This document shows positions 46,664 through 62,046 of a stretch of 62,277 nt of DNA, piece after piece. Numbering within the stretch: position 1 is the first letter of the stretch; each line of letters opens with the position of its first letter. The notes beneath the pieces were generated by a model. The model was not told the DNA's origin and searched no databases. It saw nothing but the letters and a program-made list of their open reading frames with translations. The DNA is taken from assembly GCA_030651305.1 (NCBI GenBank), contig JAUSCI010000031.1:1-62277 (forward strand), read 5' to 3'. Source of the DNA: Sulfuritalea sp. Lineage in GTDB: Bacteria > Pseudomonadota > Gammaproteobacteria > Burkholderiales > Rhodocyclaceae. A program made the position numbers and the translations under genes.

Positions 46664-47772
46664 TGACTGTTCAGGTCGGATAGGCGGAAGCTACCCGGCA
46701 AATCGAGGCTGAGGAACATTGCCCTGAAATGCCTGAACGAGAGATGGGAAGATATCGAAGTGCTGTTTCTGAATCGTGGCGAGGCAGGAACGAATGGTGC
46801 AGAAGGCCTGCGCTCCCGAGAAGGTGCGGAAGCAGCCGGCGATCTTGTGCTTGACCTTGGGCATGCGAATAGCTTGTTCCGCGAGGTTGTTGCTGAAGGG
46901 AACACGAGGATCGGTGGTGACCGCCGTATGCAGCCAGTTGAGCTGGCCCGCCACTCGGTAGCCCGACTCGTCGGCGCCCGCCACATCCGACCGGGCAATC
47001 GCGTCGGCAATATCGGCGACTGTTGGCGCCAGAAGCGTACCCGCTTCGCCGATCATGGTTTGAATCGTGCCGCGCGAGATCGGCAAACCATACAGGTCGG
47101 AGAGCAATTGGGCCGTGCGTGCGACGGGCAGCATGTGGCGCTGCGTCAGATAGACGGCGAGTGCCTTGACGCCGGAGCCGTAGTGCACCGAGGCAACGAC
47201 ATCGGACGGAAACTCGCTTCGGTGAAGCTTGCCACAGGCGCAGCGTGTCCGATGAATGTGGTGCTCGGTGACTTCCAGCGCCACTGGCGGCAAATCGAAG
47301 ACCTGCCGCGTTTCGGTCGAAATATCTCCATTCAAGGTCGCACCGCAGGCATCGCATATCGACGGCAAGGGATGATCCACGATGTAATCCGGATCGGCGA
47401 CTTCTCCAGTGTCGAGCCCTTATGCCCCGGCTGACCACCGGGCGGACGGGTTCCCTTCTTGCGCATCGATTTCGTCTTCTTCAGACCTTCGGCAGAAGAC
47501 GGAATACTGGAGTTGCGGCTGTTCTTCGCCAATTGCCCGTGCAGGTCGGCCACCTCCATCTTCAGGCTCGCCACTTCTGTCTTCAACTCGACGACATCCT
47601 TGCGCAGCGCCGTTACCAAATCCCGCAGTGCATGGATGACTTCATCGTTCTGCGCGTGGGTCAGTCCGGCAAGATCGGGCAGCGATTCCATGCCTTCATT
47701 TATCGCCTCCCCCGCCTTTTTCTCAAACCCAGAACAGATGCCCTTTCATCGGGTACGGCGGCGTAACAGTCG
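46664..47772 (-). mobile_element. Decayed IS66-family element
   Basis: The element contains a broken IS66 transposase and appears bounded by GACTGTT (46665-46671) and AACAGTC (47765-47771), short inverted ends like those of the ISBst12 group. Its length of about 1.1 kb is well below a full element, because the transposase has lost its middle. No target duplication is visible. Confidence 0.65.
46691..47691 (-). pseudogene. IS66-family transposase, frameshifted and internally deleted
   Basis: The N-terminal part (47691 down to about 47370) has a coiled coil (LRKDVVELKTEVASLKMEVA) and the NSRNSSIPSS-GGQPGHKG segment. A one-base frameshift near 47370 moves the frame to CDACGATLNGDI with the zinc-binding part, VALEVTEHHIHRTRCACGK. 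After GQLNWLHTAVT the sequence jumps to TDPRVPFSNNLAEQAIRM, skipping roughly 150 residues of the DDE domain. It cannot be functional. Confidence 0.85.
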
Positions 47773-48156
47773 ACGCAATCGGTCGGCAAGCGCAAAGAGG
47801 AGAAACCCGAGGGCATTGACCCCTTGCTTTTGATTGGTCAGATACCAGGCGGCAGCAAACCAGACCCGGAGCGGGGTACGTGTCTTGTCGAAAATGGTTC
47901 CTGCCGTAATCGAAGTCTGGTGGCGGCAATGGCGACACATCAGCCGTGTGCGACTGGCCCGATAGGCGGGCGCCATGATCGAACACGCCGGACAAACAAA
48001 TCCTTGCGGCCAGCGCAGCCGCTCCAAATACGCATGGCAAGCCTCCTCCGTGACGAACCAGTCCAGGAAATCATTCCAGGTTCGGGGGTGTTGCGGGTTC
48101 GGGGGGTAGTCCTTTCCGGAAATTGGCGGTAGTATCTGGATTTCCATCCAGTGCAT
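47746..48156 (-). pseudogene. IS1595-family transposase, N-terminal fragment
   Basis: The first 117 codons (zinc ribbon FVCPACSIMAPAYRASRTRL, MCRHC, then TSITAGTIFDKTRTPL) are close to the intact transposase at 57864-58856 but differ at a number of positions and carry five extra residues (PNPQH). The last 19 codons are unrelated. The DDE catalytic domain is absent, so it is inactive. The differences show that this is a related element and not a recent copy of the one near dnaE2. Confidence 0.8.
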
Positions 48157-48190
48157 TCTAGCTCAAGTGGAGCTAAGTGGATACCTAATA
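47773..48190 (-). mobile_element. IS1595-family element, truncated copy next to lexA
   Basis: The right end (about 48160-48190, with AGTGGAGCTAAGTGGATACC) matches the end of the intact element at 57842-58890, and the transposase N-terminus is similar, but everything after codon 117 is gone, replaced by 35 bp and the IS66 end. Beyond its right end lies TGGATAGACAG, a LexA half-site. Confidence 0.75.
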
Positions 48191-48201
48191 TGGATAGACA
48201 G
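48186..48201 (+). promoter_or_regulatory. Damaged LexA box of lexA
   Basis: TAATATGGATAGACAG: the ACAG half (48198-48201) is kept, the CTGT half is replaced by the IS1595 end. If the eight bases TGGATAGA are the target duplication, the original site was CTGTATGGATAGACAG, a good SOS box, 16 bp before the lexA start. Confidence 0.55.
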
Positions 48202-48217
48202 TCAACGGAGTATGTTC

Positions 48218-48823
48218 ATGGCCGACGATCTCACTCCCCGCCAGCGGGAAATTCTCGATTTCATCCGCAACAGCATGGAAGTCTTCAGCGTGCCGCCGAC
48301 GCGCGCGGAGATTGCCGGTGCCTTCGGCTTTGCCTCGCCCAATGCCGCCGAAGATCATTTGAAGGCGCTGGCAAAAAAGGGCGCGATCATACTCGAGCCC
48401 GGTTTCGCGCGCGGCATCCGACTGGTGGAACAACTCGGCCTGCCGCTGATCGGCACGGTTGCCGCCGGCAGTCCGCTGCTGGCGATCGAGAACCGCCTCG
48501 GCAACATCCGCATCGATCCCGCGCTATTCACGCCGCGCGCTGATTTCCTGCTGCGCGTGCGCGGCCTGTCGATGATCGAGGCCGGCATCCTCGATGGCGA
48601 CCTGCTCGCCGTGCATCGCACCTCCGAAGCGACCAACGGCCAGATCGTCATCGCCCGGCTGGGCGACGAAGTCACCGTCAAACGCTTCAAGCGGCGCGGC
48701 AGCATGGTTGAACTGATCGCCGAGAACCGCGACTTCGCGCCGATCCTGGTCAATACGCGCAAGGAGCCGCTGACCATCGAAGGCGTCGCGGTCGGTTTGA
48801 TCCGGGATGGCCGGACCTTGTGA
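48218..48823 (+). CDS. lexA: LexA repressor
   Basis: A 201-residue LexA. Winged helix-turn-helix at 1-65 ([36 protein letters not shown]), self-cleavage site A83-G84 in [11 protein letters not shown], catalytic Ser118 ([11 protein letters not shown]) and Lys155 (EVTVKRFK). Spacing matches E. coli LexA to within one residue. ATG 48218 is chosen because GGAG lies seven bases upstream; ATG 48212 is too close to it. It starts the lexA-imuA-imuB cassette, overlapping imuA by 4 bp. Its own SOS box has lost one half to IS1595, so autoregulation is probably weakened. Confidence 0.93.
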
Positions 48824-57828: not shown

Positions 57829-57841
57829 CTGTATATAAAAA
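57829..57841 (+). promoter_or_regulatory. Left half of the LexA box split by IS1595
   Basis: CTGTATATAAAAA. Joined to CAG at 58899-58901 after removal of one target copy this gives CTGTATATAAAAACAG, a perfect CTGT-N8-ACAG SOS box upstream of dnaE2. Confidence 0.85.
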
Positions 57842-58890
57842 ATGGGGTATCCACTTAGCTCCACTAAGTGGTTTTCCTTGCTTTTTTGCTCTTGATGTCG
57901 CCGTAGGTAATTGTTGAGGTGGTGACGGCTTGCTGCATCAGACGATAGAAGAGCAGGCCGCGCGAACGGGAGGTTCGGCGGTTGAATCGGAACACGAATT
58001 CGTCGAGATAGGAATCCACCTGATGGGGTTGGATGGCGCCGTGGTGAGTCCCCATGATCCAGCGCTTGACGAGAGAGGCCACGCGATGGACTCCCGGCAT
58101 GGAGACATGAGCGGGCGTCTCGGACCTGAGCATGACGTGGCGGTCGTGCGCATAACCTGACGATGCGACAGAGCGGTAAGCGGCCGACCCATCCGTGGAA
58201 ATCGTGCTGCCGGCACAGACGACATCCTGAATGAAGGGCAGCACATGGGCCTCGGTATCCTCAGGGATACAGCGCAGGCGGATACGGCCAAACCCTTTGG
58301 GATCGAGGAGTTCCACGGCGATGACCACCAACAGCTTGTTGGTGTTGCTTTTCCTCTTTTTTGAAGCGGTTGCAAGTTGCTTATCGGTGATATCCAGGTA
58401 GGTTTCATCGACCTCGACACGCCCTTTGAGCTGATCCCGGCCGGGACGAACCATGGCATGGCGGAAGCGATGAAGCATGGTCCAGGCGGTTTGGTAGCTC
58501 CCCAACCCCAGCACACGCTGTAACCCGAGCGCACTGACCCCCTGCTTTTGATTGGTCAGATACCAGGCGGCGGCAAACCATACCCGTAGCGGGGTGCGAG
58601 TCTTGTCGAAAATGGTTCCTGCCGTAATCGACGTCTGGTGGTGGCAGTGGCGACACATCAACCGTGTGCGACTGGCCCGATAGGCGGGTGCCATGATCGA
58701 ACACGCCGGACAAACAAATCCATCGGGCCAGCGCAGTCGATCCAAATACGCATGGCAAGCCTCGTTCGTGGCGAACCAGTCGAGGAAATCATTCCAGGTT
58801 CGGGGGTAGTCTCTTCCGGCAATTGGCGGTAGTATCTGGACATCCATCCAGTGCATTCTAGCTCAAGTGGAGCTAAGTGGATACCCAATA
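57842..58890 (-). mobile_element. Intact IS1595-family element in the dnaE2 SOS box
   Basis: About 1.05 kb. Left end GGGGTATCCACTTAGCTCCA and right end TGGAGCTAAGTGGATACCC are inverted repeats. The target duplication is TATAAAAA (57834-57841 and 58891-58898), eight bases as is usual for this family; up to ten bases match, so the exact ends may shift by one or two. The transposase is complete, so the insertion may be recent. Confidence 0.92.
57864..58856 (-). CDS. IS1595-family transposase
   Basis: A 330-residue transposase. The N-terminal zinc ribbon (FVCPACSIMAPAYRASRTRL, MCRHC) is followed by the helical TSITAGTIFDKTRTPLRVWF segment and a DDE-type core with VDETYLDI, STDGSAAYRSV and the HHGAIQPHQVDSYLDEFVFR region ending in NRR. 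The length is normal and no frameshift is seen, so it is likely active. A related but truncated copy lies at 47746-48156. Confidence 0.92.
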   Translation of the reverse strand: MHWMDVQILPPIAGRDYPRTWNDFLDWFATNEACHAYLDRLRWPDGFVCPACSIMAPAYRASRTRLMCRHCHHQTSITAGTIFDKTRTPLRVWFAAAWYLTNQKQGVSALGLQRVLGLGSYQTAWTMLHRFRHAMVRPGRDQLKGRVEVDETYLDITDKQLATASKKRKSNTNKLLVVIAVELLDPKGFGRIRLRCIPEDTEAHVLPFIQDVVCAGSTISTDGSAAYRSVASSGYAHDRHVMLRSETPAHVSMPGVHRVASLVKRWIMGTHHGAIQPHQVDSYLDEFVFRFNRRTSRSRGLLFYRLMQQAVTTSTITYGDIKSKKARKTT

Positions 58891-58901
58891 TATAAAAACA
58901 G
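58891..58901 (+). promoter_or_regulatory. Right half of the LexA box split by IS1595
   Basis: TATAAAAACAG, 20 bp before the dnaE2 start. With the IS end the 16-bp window reads CAATATATAAAAACAG, so only two of four bases of the CTGT half remain. Confidence 0.8.
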
Positions 58902-58920: not shown

Positions 58921-61900
58921 ATGTCTTCCCTGCCGGCCTACGCCGAACTCCACTGCCTGTCCAATTTCAGCTTCTTGCGCGGCGCGTCGCATGCCGAGGA
59001 ACTGGTGGCGCGCGCCGTGCGGCTGGGCTATGCGGCACTGGCGATCAGCGACGAATGCAGCTTCGCCGGCAGCGTACGCGCGCATCTGGCGGGGCGCGGC
59101 ACGGCGCTGCAACTGATCCACGGCACCGAACTGCGCCTCGCCTGCGGTATGAAGCTGGTGCTGCTGGCGCAGAACCGCGCCGGTTACGGCAATCTCTCGG
59201 CACTGGTGACCCTGGGACGCAGACGAGCGGAAAAGGGCGCCTACCACCTGACGCGCAAGGATCTTGCCGGCTGGGATGGCGGCGGCGTGCCGGATTGTTT
59301 GGCACTGTGGGTTCCGGCGGCAGACATGAAAGTCGGCGCTGGCGAGACGGCGACTTGGGACGCCGATGCGCGCTGGCTGGCCGAACACTTTGCCGGGCGC
59401 GGCTGGATCACCTTCGAGCGGCATCTGCGGCCTGACGACCATGAGCGCCTGGCGCAGCTGCGCGAACTCGCGGCGGCGACGCACCTGCCGCTGGTCGCCG
59501 CGGGCGACGTGCACATGCATGCGCGCTCAAGGCGGCCCTTGCAGGACGTATTGGCCGCGCTGCGTTTGAATACCACAGTGGCTGAAGCCGGCGCGGCGCT
59601 GTTTGCCAACGGCGAACGCCACCTGCGCTCGCGCCTTGCGCTGGCGCGCCTGTATCCGCCAGAACTGCTGGCCGAGACCGTGAAGATTGCCGCACGCTGC
59701 GAGTTTTCCTTCGACGAGTTGCGCTACGAATATCCCGAGGAAGTGGTGCCGGCGGGCGAGACGCCGGATTCCTGGTTGCGGCGGCTGACCGAAGACGGCC
59801 TCGCGCGACGCTATCCCGCCGGCGTGCCGGACAAGGTGCTGGCGCAGGTCGAACACGAACTGCGGTTGATTGCCGAGATGGCCTACGCGCCGTATTTCCT
59901 CACCGTGCACGACATCGTCGCCTGGGCGCGCGGGCAGGGCATCCTCTGCCAGGGACGCGGCTCGGCGGCGAACTCGGCGGTGTGCTACGCGCTCTTCGTC
60001 ACCGAAGTCGATCCGGCGCGGGCGTCGATGCTGTTCGAGCGCTTTGTCTCGAAGGAGCGCAAGGAGCCGCCGGACATCGACGTCGATTTCGAGCACCAGC
60101 GGCGCGAGGAAGTCATCCAGTACATCTATGCCAAGTACGGCCGCGAACGCGCGGCGCTGGCCGCCGCCGTGATCACTTACCGCACTCGCAGTGCGCTGCG
60201 CGATGCCGGGCGGGCACTGGGTTTTCCGCTGGAAGCCATCGACCGACTGGCCGGCAATCTGGCCTGGTGGGAAAAGCGCGAGGAACTGCCGCAACGCTTC
60301 ACCGAAGCCGGGCTCGATCCGGATCAGCCGAACGTGCAGCGCTGGCTGGCGATCGCGCAAATGCTGATCGGATTTCCGCGCCATTTGTCGCAGCACGTCG
60401 GCGGCTTTGTCATTGCGCGCTCGCGGCTGGATCGCCTGGTGCCGGTGGAAAACGCCGCCATGCCCGAGCGCACGGTGATCCAGTGGGACAAGGACGACAT
60501 CGAGGCACTGGGCCTGATGAAAGTCGACGTGCTGGCGCTGGGTATGCTCAGCGCAATACGCCGCATGCTGGCCGCGGTGGCGCTGCGCCATGACAAACCG
60601 TTCGAGCTTTCCGACGTGCCGGCCGAGGATGCTGCGACCTACGCCATGGTTTCGCGCGCCGACACCATCGGCGTATTCCAGATCGAATCGCGGGCGCAGA
60701 TGGCCATGCTGCCGCGCCTGCGGCCGGCCTGCTTCTACGACCTGGTGATCGAAGTGGCGCTGGTGCGGCCGGGGCCTATCCAGGGCAACATGGTGCATCC
60801 GTATCTCAGGCGGCGGCAGGGCATCGAGCCGGTCAGCTATCCGTCGCAAGCCGTGCGCGGCGTCCTCGAACGAACCTTGGGCATCCCGATTTTTCAGGAA
60901 CAGGCGATGCAGATCGCCATCGTCGCCGCCGGCTTTACGCCCGGTGAAGCGGATCAACTGCGCCGCGCTATGGCGGCGTGGAAGCGCAAGGGCGGCTTGG
61001 AGCCTTTCCGCGACAGGCTGCTCGCCGGCATGCGCGAGCGCGGTTATGCCGATGAGTTTGCGGCGGCGCTGTACGCCCAGATCAAAGGCTTCGGCGACTA
61101 TGGCTTTCCCGAATCGCATGCGGCAAGTTTCGCCTTGCTGGCCTATGTCTCGGCCTGGCTCAAGCGCCACGAACCGGCGGCCTTTCTGGTCGGGCTGCTC
61201 AACTCGCAGCCGATGGGTTTCTATTCGCCCTCGCAACTGGTGCAGGACGCGCGCCGCCACGGCGTCGAGGTATGGCCGGTGGATGTCGCCGTCAGCGACT
61301 GGGAAAGCACGCTGGAAGGCGATGGACTGTCCCGCGTCCGCCTCGGCCTGCATCAGGTGCGCAACTTCGCTTCAGCGGCGGGTGAGCGGATTGTCGCAGC
61401 GCGTGGGCAGACACCGTTTGTCGATCTCGCCGATCTGGCCCGGCGTGCCGATCTGGCCCGCGCCGATCTCGACGCGCTGGCCGCCGCTGGTGCTCTGGCG
61501 CATCTGGCCGGGCATCGACGCCAGGCGGCGTGGACGGCGGCTGCGGTACCGCTGCAACGCGATCTGTTCGCCGGCATCGCGCCGCGCGAAGAGGCGGTGA
61601 ATTTCGCCGCGCCGCGCGAAGGCGAAGACATCGCTGCCGACTATCGCAGCCTCGGCCTCAGCCTCGGTCGCCATCCGCTGGCGCTGCTGCGCGCGCGGCT
61701 CACGGCGCAGCGCTACCTTTCGGCGCGGGACTTGCGTGCGAGCGGCAACAACGCCGTGGTGCGCTGCGCCGGCATCGTCACCTGCCGCCAGCGACCGGGC
61801 ACGGCCAGCGGCGTCATCTTCGTCACGCTGGAAGACGAAACCGGCTGCGCCAACGTCGTGGTGTTCAAGGATGTGGCGTCCCGTCAGCGCCGACTTTTGC

Positions 61901-62046
61901 TCGGCAGCCGGTTGCTGGGCGTGGCCGGCCAGCTGCAGCGCCAAGGCGAAGGCGAGCATGCCGTGGTGCATCTGATCGCCAGGCGTTTGTTCGATCACAG
62001 CGAGTTGCTCGGGCGGCTGGTGACGGCGAGCCGGGATTTTTGCTGA
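58921..62046 (+). CDS. dnaE2: Error-prone DNA polymerase DnaE2 (ImuC)
   Basis: A 1041-residue C-family polymerase. N-terminal PHP domain (AELHCLSNFSFLRGASHAEE), polymerase core with GQGILCQGRGSAANSAVCYA and the catalytic aspartates in PPDIDVDFEHQRREEV, a helix-hairpin-helix region, and a C-terminal OB fold (GTASGVIFVTLEDETGCANV). Length and blocks fit DnaE2 and not DnaE1. It acts with ImuA and ImuB in SOS mutagenesis, but is 8 kb from them here with its own SOS box, now disrupted. A dispersed repeat copy at 59328-59354 adds KVGAGETAT in the PHP domain. ATG 58921 begins the family N-terminus. Confidence 0.95.
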   Translation: MSSLPAYAELHCLSNFSFLRGASHAEELVARAVRLGYAALAISDECSFAGSVRAHLAGRGTALQLIHGTELRLACGMKLVLLAQNRAGYGNLSALVTLGRRRAEKGAYHLTRKDLAGWDGGGVPDCLALWVPAADMKVGAGETATWDADARWLAEHFAGRGWITFERHLRPDDHERLAQLRELAAATHLPLVAAGDVHMHARSRRPLQDVLAALRLNTTVAEAGAALFANGERHLRSRLALARLYPPELLAETVKIAARCEFSFDELRYEYPEEVVPAGETPDSWLRRLTEDGLARRYPAGVPDKVLAQVEHELRLIAEMAYAPYFLTVHDIVAWARGQGILCQGRGSAANSAVCYALFVTEVDPARASMLFERFVSKERKEPPDIDVDFEHQRREEVIQYIYAKYGRERAALAAAVITYRTRSALRDAGRALGFPLEAIDRLAGNLAWWEKREELPQRFTEAGLDPDQPNVQRWLAIAQMLIGFPRHLSQHVGGFVIARSRLDRLVPVENAAMPERTVIQWDKDDIEALGLMKVDVLALGMLSAIRRMLAAVALRHDKPFELSDVPAEDAATYAMVSRADTIGVFQIESRAQMAMLPRLRPACFYDLVIEVALVRPGPIQGNMVHPYLRRRQGIEPVSYPSQAVRGVLERTLGIPIFQEQAMQIAIVAAGFTPGEADQLRRAMAAWKRKGGLEPFRDRLLAGMRERGYADEFAAALYAQIKGFGDYGFPESHAASFALLAYVSAWLKRHEPAAFLVGLLNSQPMGFYSPSQLVQDARRHGVEVWPVDVAVSDWESTLEGDGLSRVRLGLHQVRNFASAAGERIVAARGQTPFVDLADLARRADLARADLDALAAAGALAHLAGHRRQAAWTAAAVPLQRDLFAGIAPREEAVNFAAPREGEDIAADYRSLGLSLGRHPLALLRARLTAQRYLSARDLRASGNNAVVRCAGIVTCRQRPGTASGVIFVTLEDETGCANVVVFKDVASRQRRLLLGSRLLGVAGQLQRQGEGEHAVVHLIARRLFDHSELLGRLVTASRDFC
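59328..59354 (+). repeat. Dispersed repeat copy 8, in frame inside dnaE2
   Basis: GAAAGTCGGCGCTGG followed by CGAGACGGCGAC; encodes KVGAGETAT between the LWVPAAD and WDADARWLAE parts of the PHP domain. Confidence 0.75.

Follow-up and report, generated by a model that had tools for sequence, protein, structure and literature searches.

A clade of IS1595-family insertion sequences inserts at the centre of LexA operators and probably frees SOS genes from repression

A clade of IS1595-family insertion sequences that includes ISCsp2 very probably takes LexA operators as its transposition target, cutting them at the centre of the box, whereby repression would be lost. Its target specificity, its cut register, its spread over many SOS genes and the empty sites in relatives were all directly observed. 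The box concerned, CTGT-N8-ACAG, is given in PMC3323433 as the LexA box of E. coli and most beta- and gammaproteobacteria. In the literature we searched, to which the 2009 description of the IS1595 family did not belong, LexA boxes are nowhere reported as a target of IS1595 elements. Fixed-target insertion sequences are already known, but none known to us is directed at the operators of a global stress regulon.

The window, by which we mean the whole 62,277-nucleotide stretch of DNA analyzed, holds two such elements (Table 1). One is intact and lies in the LexA box upstream of dnaE2; as the original prediction held, its excision rebuilds CTGT-ATATAAAA-ACAG. Its domains, terminal repeats, and target duplication all place this element in the IS1595 family. 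Its transposase matches PF12762 (E value of 6.5e-35) and PF12760 (E value of 2.8e-13) above cut-off and scores 192 bits against NF033547, for which the cut-off is 75; the single transposase gene (57864-58856) is enclosed by terminal inverted repeats; and the target duplication is 8 bp long, with identical 8-mers in 48 of the 63 complete elements of the clade. Both window copies also carry CTG at the fixed offset beyond the terminal repeat that characterizes the LexA-box clade, the left end of the dnaE2-side element having one extra base relative to this offset. From ACAG, 19 bases lead to the start (ATG 58921) of a gene that we take to be dnaE2 from its Pfam domains and its place. A scan for a consensus promoter across this junction gave none, and the genome (G000; 97.6% complete in 82 contigs) yielded no further copy beyond the two in the window.

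The second window copy is a remnant that ends inside the lexA box, again as claimed: its kept end abuts ATGGATAG-ACAG, 16 bases before lexA (ATG 48218). The left half of this box is lost. The original box was probably CTGTATGGATAGACAG, and a same-genus genome, G004, has an empty box, CTGTATGGATAAACAG, at this place. The remnant transposase had been credited with five extra residues; the alignment (388 versus 370 nt) and the reading frames give six. Because the two copies are only 88% identical, they are not one recent duplication, in agreement with the earlier view; given this identity and their different N8 sequences, a single insertion that was duplicated within the window is unlikely. Left of the remnant lie pieces of an IS66-type transposase (PF03050, PF13005, and DUF6444; 46691-47691), which may be part of the event that truncated it.

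Table 1. Positions of the two elements, the boxes they occupy, and the adjoining genes in the window
Feature	Position	Strand	Basis
Left half-site CTGT of the split LexA box of dnaE2	57829..57832	+	Sequence; box empty in 18/22 same-genus dnaE2 upstream regions
Left copy of the 8-bp target duplication, ATATAAAA, equal to N8 of the box	57833..57840	+	Register from other copies (L004)
IS1595-family element, 1049 bp	57841..58889	-	Terminal inverted repeats and DNA comparison
Terminal repeat core, GGGTATCCACTTAGCTCCACT	57845-57865 and 58866-58886		Both ends of the dnaE2-side element
Transposase, 330 aa, uninterrupted, zinc ribbon and DDE domain	57864..58856	-	PF12760, PF12762, NF033547, AlphaFold DDE-type fold
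Right copy of the target duplication, ATATAAAA	58890..58897	+	Sequence; fixed-register count
Right half-site ACAG of the split dnaE2 LexA box	58898..58901	+	Sequence
dnaE2-type DNA polymerase III alpha	58921..62046	+	PF07733, PF17657, PF02811, PF14579; start by genus comparison
Truncated copy of the same IS type; transposase-start end kept, other end lost	47804..48189	-	88% identity to query positions 694-1063
Surviving N8 ATGGATAG and right half-site ACAG of the lexA box	48190-48197 (N8) and 48198-48201 (ACAG)	+	Sequence; empty box in G004
lexA	48218..48823	+	PF01726 and PF00717; matched in 28/31 genus genomes

Relatives were collected by element DNA in 60 related genomes (with 12 flanking bases per side of the 1049-bp element included in the query), by terminal repeat in 31 genomes of the genus, and by transposase in 395 genomes of the family (69 matched, 30 loci taken). 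A five-transposase profile was run on genome contigs (80 loci kept of 166 encoding a relative) and on viral contigs, which gave 2 loci. Plasmids were searched by protein, and from the best 40 of 357 matching records, 11 were fetched. Extra stretches were taken around matches already in the collection. Ends were placed by the terminal repeat alone, and apart from the 12-base query flanks, no flank entered into the choice of loci. The 300 raw ends from 212 loci were reduced to 177 non-redundant ends, whose outer 40 bases differ at more than 4 places. The end filter, which asked for the first repeat bases and a score of 22 of 27, removed 27 further matches scoring at least 20, mostly chance matches, with both ends of the Sinomonas relative L191 among them. 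Loosening the filter recovers three more ends of clade type: L132, which has CTGT, and the decayed L008 and L209, which lack CTG. Complete elements were counted in a fixed duplication register, with one extra base allowed for L001, and the resulting 63 complete non-redundant clade elements include L079 twice on account of its nested ends. For the analysis of neighboring genes we used 112 insertion groups; these exclude three out-of-clade elements and one chance match, and they count twice any insertion whose ends lie on two contigs (e.g., L199/L200, L201/L202, and L203/L204). All counts are of distinct flanks rather than proven independent events, and several of the hosts are metagenome bins.

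Of the 177 ends, 162 show CTG where a LexA box would have it and 138 show the full CTGT; the other tetramers at this fixed offset include CTGG (15 ends) and CTGA (8 ends). Each of the three half-site bases C, T, and G is conserved at 94-95%, and the averaged outside sequence is taCTGTATATATAT, with the motif taCTGT(AT)4. When both sides of the 63 complete elements are read together, 59 rebuild CTG-N10-CAG, 45 rebuild CTGT-N8-ACAG, and all 63 have at least one perfect half-site. The chance level, taken from 386,856 flank positions of the same loci, is 2 occurrences of CTGT-N8-ACAG and 144 of CTG-N10-CAG. The flanks of related copies thus bear out the proposal that this IS group prefers LexA operators, and the target sites are not random. 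The 15 ends without CTG comprise six from the three out-of-clade elements (L149, L151, and L193), one chance match to the repeat (L115), one end with a one-base shift (the left end of L001), and seven odd or decayed clade ends (L005, L006, L092, L101, L118, L142, and L150).

The cut has a set register: the duplicated 8 bp are the N8 of the box. Read alone, the dnaE2-side copy in the window could have a duplication of up to 10 bp. The flanks of L004 (genome G021) are CTGA-TGATATAT and TGATATAT-ACAG, and therefore the duplication is 8 bp (at most 9), equal to N8; the cut is therefore symmetric about the operator dyad. Duplications are poor, matching at 5 or fewer of 8 positions, in 10 of the 63 complete elements. 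The two flanking N8 sequences are unlike each other in L048, L087, L098, L101, L113, L124, L150, and L153, which may stem from decay or from recombination that joined copies at different operators. At the 5′ end of L079, two successive element ends are separated by a further half-box, CTGT-ATGGATAT, one element having inserted beside another.

Same-genus genomes carry the empty box at both lexA and dnaE2, as the comparison of relatives had been expected to reveal. lexA was matched in 28 of 31 genomes, and 27 upstream regions were readable. The box is present at about the same distance in 23 of these (CTGT-N8-ACAG in 20 and CTGT-N8-CCAG in 3) and occupied by the element in three (G000, G015, and G018); the upstream region in G019 (L222, about 1420-1500) has neither box nor element and includes a stretch resembling a decayed element start. 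Among 22 dnaE2 upstream regions, 18 have CTG-N10-CAG (CTGT-N8-ACAG in 15), two are occupied (G000 and G017), and two lack the box (G005 and G025). The palindrome inside the element of occupied genomes was excluded by hand from these tallies. Lying close upstream of SOS genes and conserved in relatives at these frequencies (23/27 and 18/22), the two boxes qualify by position and conservation as putative SOS operators. The dnaE2 upstream region of G001 reads CTGTATATAAAAACAG, identical to the site that excision restores in the window. The dnaE2 contig of G010 starts inside an element at the dnaE2 box, and in G017 the half-site behind an old element is no longer ACAG, as expected if the half-site no longer serves LexA.

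The genes behind the boxes extend this picture to many SOS genes. We took as the outward gene the longest outward frame starting at most 260 bp from the element end, which gave a gene for 149 of the 177 ends, and none for 25, with 3 too short to use; genes were named by clustering, by Pfam and NCBIfam searches on 74 distinct proteins, and by local BLAST against representatives. In 39 of the 112 insertion groups, a member of 13 named families, which we take to be SOS genes, or intI starts within this distance. The number rises to 47 when the PA0069 family, which is under LexA control in Pseudomonas, is added. By group, the genes are umuD (10), PA0069-type radical SAM (8), integron integrase (6), dnaE2 (5), lexA (4), UvrD-like, SRAP, and imuA (3 each), DinB-type, dinG-like, and IS91 transposase (2 each), and imuB, recA, polB, yebG, topB, and DUF5131 (1 each). 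Outside the 39, the other 73 groups have no recognized SOS gene nearby, in some cases because the contig ends. Three gene starts are 181-227 bases from the element end (L104, L031, and L108). The largest cluster of outward proteins, with 14 ends, consists of ten umuD (all above the NF007621 cut-off) and four lexA products. umuD lies on the 3′ side of the transposase in L083, L084, L089, L110, L129, and L146 and on its 5′ side in L115 and L153, so the orientation to the SOS gene is not fixed.

Integron integrases are described as being under LexA control (PMC8876359), and the element sits in the LexA box upstream of an integron integrase gene in L018, L101, L103, L138, and L148, and at 217 bases in L104; integrons behind such split boxes may be uncoupled from SOS control. 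Two IS91-family transposase genes (L004 and L119) have an upstream LexA-type box occupied by the element, and the targeted boxes hint that these transposases are SOS controlled. In Thiomonas delicata the element lies upstream of recA (L080), which suggests that expression of this gene continues somehow.

A mechanism can be proposed in which the symmetric operator is engaged by the transposase complex, or by LexA on its behalf, and in which the two strand transfers would hit opposite strands 8 bp apart, at the edges of N8 in CTGT-N8-ACAG, with insertion in either orientation relative to the SOS gene. The operator would become CTGT-N8-element-N8-ACAG; each insertion would use up its target, and the duplicated N8 would leave an AT-rich stretch beside the gene. 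LexA binds the half-sites as a dimer, and after insertion these are about 1 kb apart, so LexA should not bind as it does on the intact box and the SOS gene should therefore lose LexA repression. We infer such a loss for the downstream SOS genes, which would then be read from whatever promoter remains at the junction. Repair and mutation genes are probably freed in this way from their normal control; that the mutasome is derepressed and a heritable mutator state results, as the original prediction proposed, stands as a hypothesis. Nature has in effect repeated one experiment in many species, apparently cutting individual SOS genes (lexA, recA, error-prone polymerases, and integron integrases among them) off from LexA control. 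These insertions make it testable how a DDE transposase finds an operator and how evolution proceeds once mutagenesis genes escape SOS control, and they offer a means of mapping LexA operators in unstudied species.

Not every CTGT-N8-ACAG sequence in a genome is taken. In Acidovorax temperans DSM 7270, which carries 9 complete copies, 42 such sequences are unoccupied. In these unoccupied boxes N8 has 59% GC, versus 19% in the 8 distinct occupied sites (p 1e-4), and purines and pyrimidines alternate at 3.9 versus 6.75 of 8 positions (p 2e-5). The same holds in Polaromonas sp. P2-4, where N8 has 61% GC in 31 unoccupied and 35% in 5 occupied boxes (p 0.017) and alternation covers 3.7 and 6.8 of 8 positions, respectively (p 3e-4). 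These are one-sided Mann-Whitney comparisons in which the occupied set includes boxes with one imperfect half. Since occupied N8 sequences are AT-rich and alternating whereas the look-alikes are GC-rich, the element thus picks operator-like boxes. Over the 63 elements the occupied N8 is likewise AT-rich, with alternation averaging 6.25 of 8 positions, and GC-rich boxes are also occupied (CTGT-ACACGCGT-ACAG in L116 and CTGG-ACGAGAAG-ACAG in L160).

We slightly prefer the reading that the transposase complex itself reads operator-like DNA, with guidance by LexA a close rival. According to the latter, which concerns the recognition step only and whose probability overlaps with that of our main explanation, what the transposase recognizes is operator-bound LexA or else an operator that has just been vacated during the SOS response. 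We consider this quite possible, if somewhat short of probable. The 42 look-alikes skipped in A. temperans in favor of operator-like boxes (59% versus 19% GC in N8) speak for it, and the Tn5053-family res site hunters, which use resolvase bound at res, provide a precedent (PMC7765201). A further argument comes from a relative on a plasmid of the actinobacterium Sinomonas atrocyanea (L191; 53% transposase identity). Its two ends share the duplication ACACACGT (TAGA-ACACACGT-TCGA), and the rebuilt site, TAGAACACACGTTCGA, contains GAAC-ACAC-GTTC with the center of the box exactly at the center of the 8-bp duplication; GAAC-N4-GTTC is given as the LexA motif of Gram-positive bacteria (PMC3323433). 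TCGAAC-N4-GTTCGA with at most one mismatch, which the Sinomonas site satisfies, occurs 6 times in 1,187,408 bases of fetched loci. Being one site, noticed post hoc and with no annotated gene starting there, it is a lead for LexA guidance and not proof. This relative, at about 1441-2959 of its locus, is roughly 1.5 kb long, and a passenger gene (annotated as an immunity 8 family protein) seems to lie between its transposase and its right end. Other close actinobacterial relatives were not found on plasmids, nor any with that repeat in viral contigs; the viral locus L269 had no clear duplication and no box, and E. coli genomes gave no match to the Enterobacter plasmid element.

Several observations weigh against guidance by LexA. 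A sister group in a metagenome-assembled genome titled Methanosarcinales (G438), with 15 further L149-like ends, uses AT-rich sites without a common box, and archaea, to our knowledge, are without LexA. Acidobacteriota have a relative in 16 of 396 genomes (17 loci), with no common box where ends were readable. Some boxes of the clade itself are unlike operators, such as that of L160 (CTGG-ACGAGAAG-ACAG), which lies in the interval between merR and an ISL3-type transposase gene. An AlphaFold model of the transposase from 48 sequences (pLDDT 79.9; an earlier one from 5 sequences was poor, at 54.5) has a DDE/RNase-H-like core; its best structural matches are the ISCth4 transposase and retroviral integrases, with low TM-scores, and no LexA-like fold is among the 50 matches listed. 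The transposase sequence had no match among solved structures. The alphaproteobacterial plasmid pMSHV, considered as a test of LexA independence, was uninformative: the two copies read share the flank of the IncP plasmids and adjoin ISPps1.

A more far-reaching version of LexA guidance is conceivable, although we regard it as rather doubtful. The transposase would sense LexA on operators, or operators bared in the SOS response, so that transposition would be coupled to DNA damage and would follow LexA to differing boxes (GAAC-N4-GTTC in an actinobacterium); SOS genes such as recA, lexA, umuD, dnaE2, and integron integrases would be made LexA independent one by one, giving rise to heritable mutator or recombination-prone lineages.

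Far less probable is the view that the element simply favors bent, AT-rich, or palindromic DNA and that LexA boxes fit this description by coincidence. Bent AT-rich operator DNA had been offered in the original prediction as a possible basis of the preference, and part of that suggestion stands, as the AT-rich, alternating center (6.25 of 8 positions over 63 elements) also matters. Bent AT-rich DNA alone is insufficient, however, because CTG..CAG is nearly invariant, and we reject it on these grounds: conservation of the half-site C, T, and G at 94-95% of 177 ends goes beyond any effect of AT content, and boxes such as CTGT-ACACGCGT-ACAG (L116) and CTGT-ATCGGGAA-ACAG (L125) are in use. The least probable explanation, random insertion followed by selection for derepression of SOS genes, would account for the many insertions upstream of mutasome and repair genes through a possible mutator advantage, but is rejected on the fixed register, since selection for expression would accept many promoter positions whereas 59 of 63 elements, whichever way they face, share one register, and insertions also lie beside integron, IS91, and unrecognized genes.

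The clade that takes LexA operators as its target resembles the IS1595 family at large in its zinc ribbon and DDE transposase, its single transposase gene, and its 8-bp duplication, but differs from it in target choice: no shared target emerges from ten distant members whose ends were readable, 0 of their 20 half-sites being CTGT or ACAG. For these controls (L050, L054, L056, L057, L058, L061, L062, L192, L193, and L194), ends were placed by repeat and duplication; other distant loci in the same sets gave no clear ends. The out-of-clade elements L149, L151, and L193 have no box, and relatives at 49-57% transposase identity give mixed target pictures. When targeting and non-targeting labels, set by hand, are mapped on a tree built from 102 transposases, one change suffices if unclear rows are left out, and the targeting label against all other rows requires 6; with a support of 85 (SH-aLRT) for the branch of the targeting clade and with outgroup rows L058 and L062 read in the wrong frame, this tree is indicative only.

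Known elements with one fixed target include Tn7, which uses attTn7. The clade shares with Tn7 at attTn7 and with IS1111 a safe-site strategy on a conserved host or cassette sequence; each of these uses one site or repeat type, whereas the LexA-box clade uses the operators of a whole regulon. The sites of IS1111 are attC sites (PMC9229058). The res site hunters Tn5053 and Tn402 are similar in that a transposon homes on the site of a DNA-binding protein, but they have several Tni proteins, 5-bp duplications, and a resolvase site rather than regulon operators as their target, in the account of PMC7765201. The groups of the IS1595 family listed in PMC8101967 are ISPna2, ISH4, IS1016, IS1595, ISSod11, ISNwi, and ISNha5.

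ISCsp2, an IS1595-family element of pCNB of Comamonas testosteroni CNB-1 and others, has 70% transposase identity to the window element. Its Diaphorobacter copy (L159) falls inside the clade, its two ends being flanked by CTGT-ACAAATGC and CTGT-GCATTTGT, and the one end read on pCNB has the same flank as the Diaphorobacter copy. The passages of PMC8406286 that concern ISCsp2 mention its presence near a catabolic cluster and describe no target. The flank CTGT-ACAAATGC recurs in L156-L159, L095, L097, L098, and L110, on IncP and other plasmids and on chromosomes. The ISCsp2 plasmid copies read share this flank and several of them adjoin the IS91-type ISPps1, so flank and element seem to travel as a unit.

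The element also contains a palindrome of its own, CTGGATGG-N5-CAG, which in the window (58836-58851) overlaps the start of the transposase gene. The same palindrome is present in 24 of 63 distinct element starts, and one arm is ACAG in L006, L077, L102, and L108. Possible readings are a weak LexA box belonging to the transposase gene and a site bound by the transposase.
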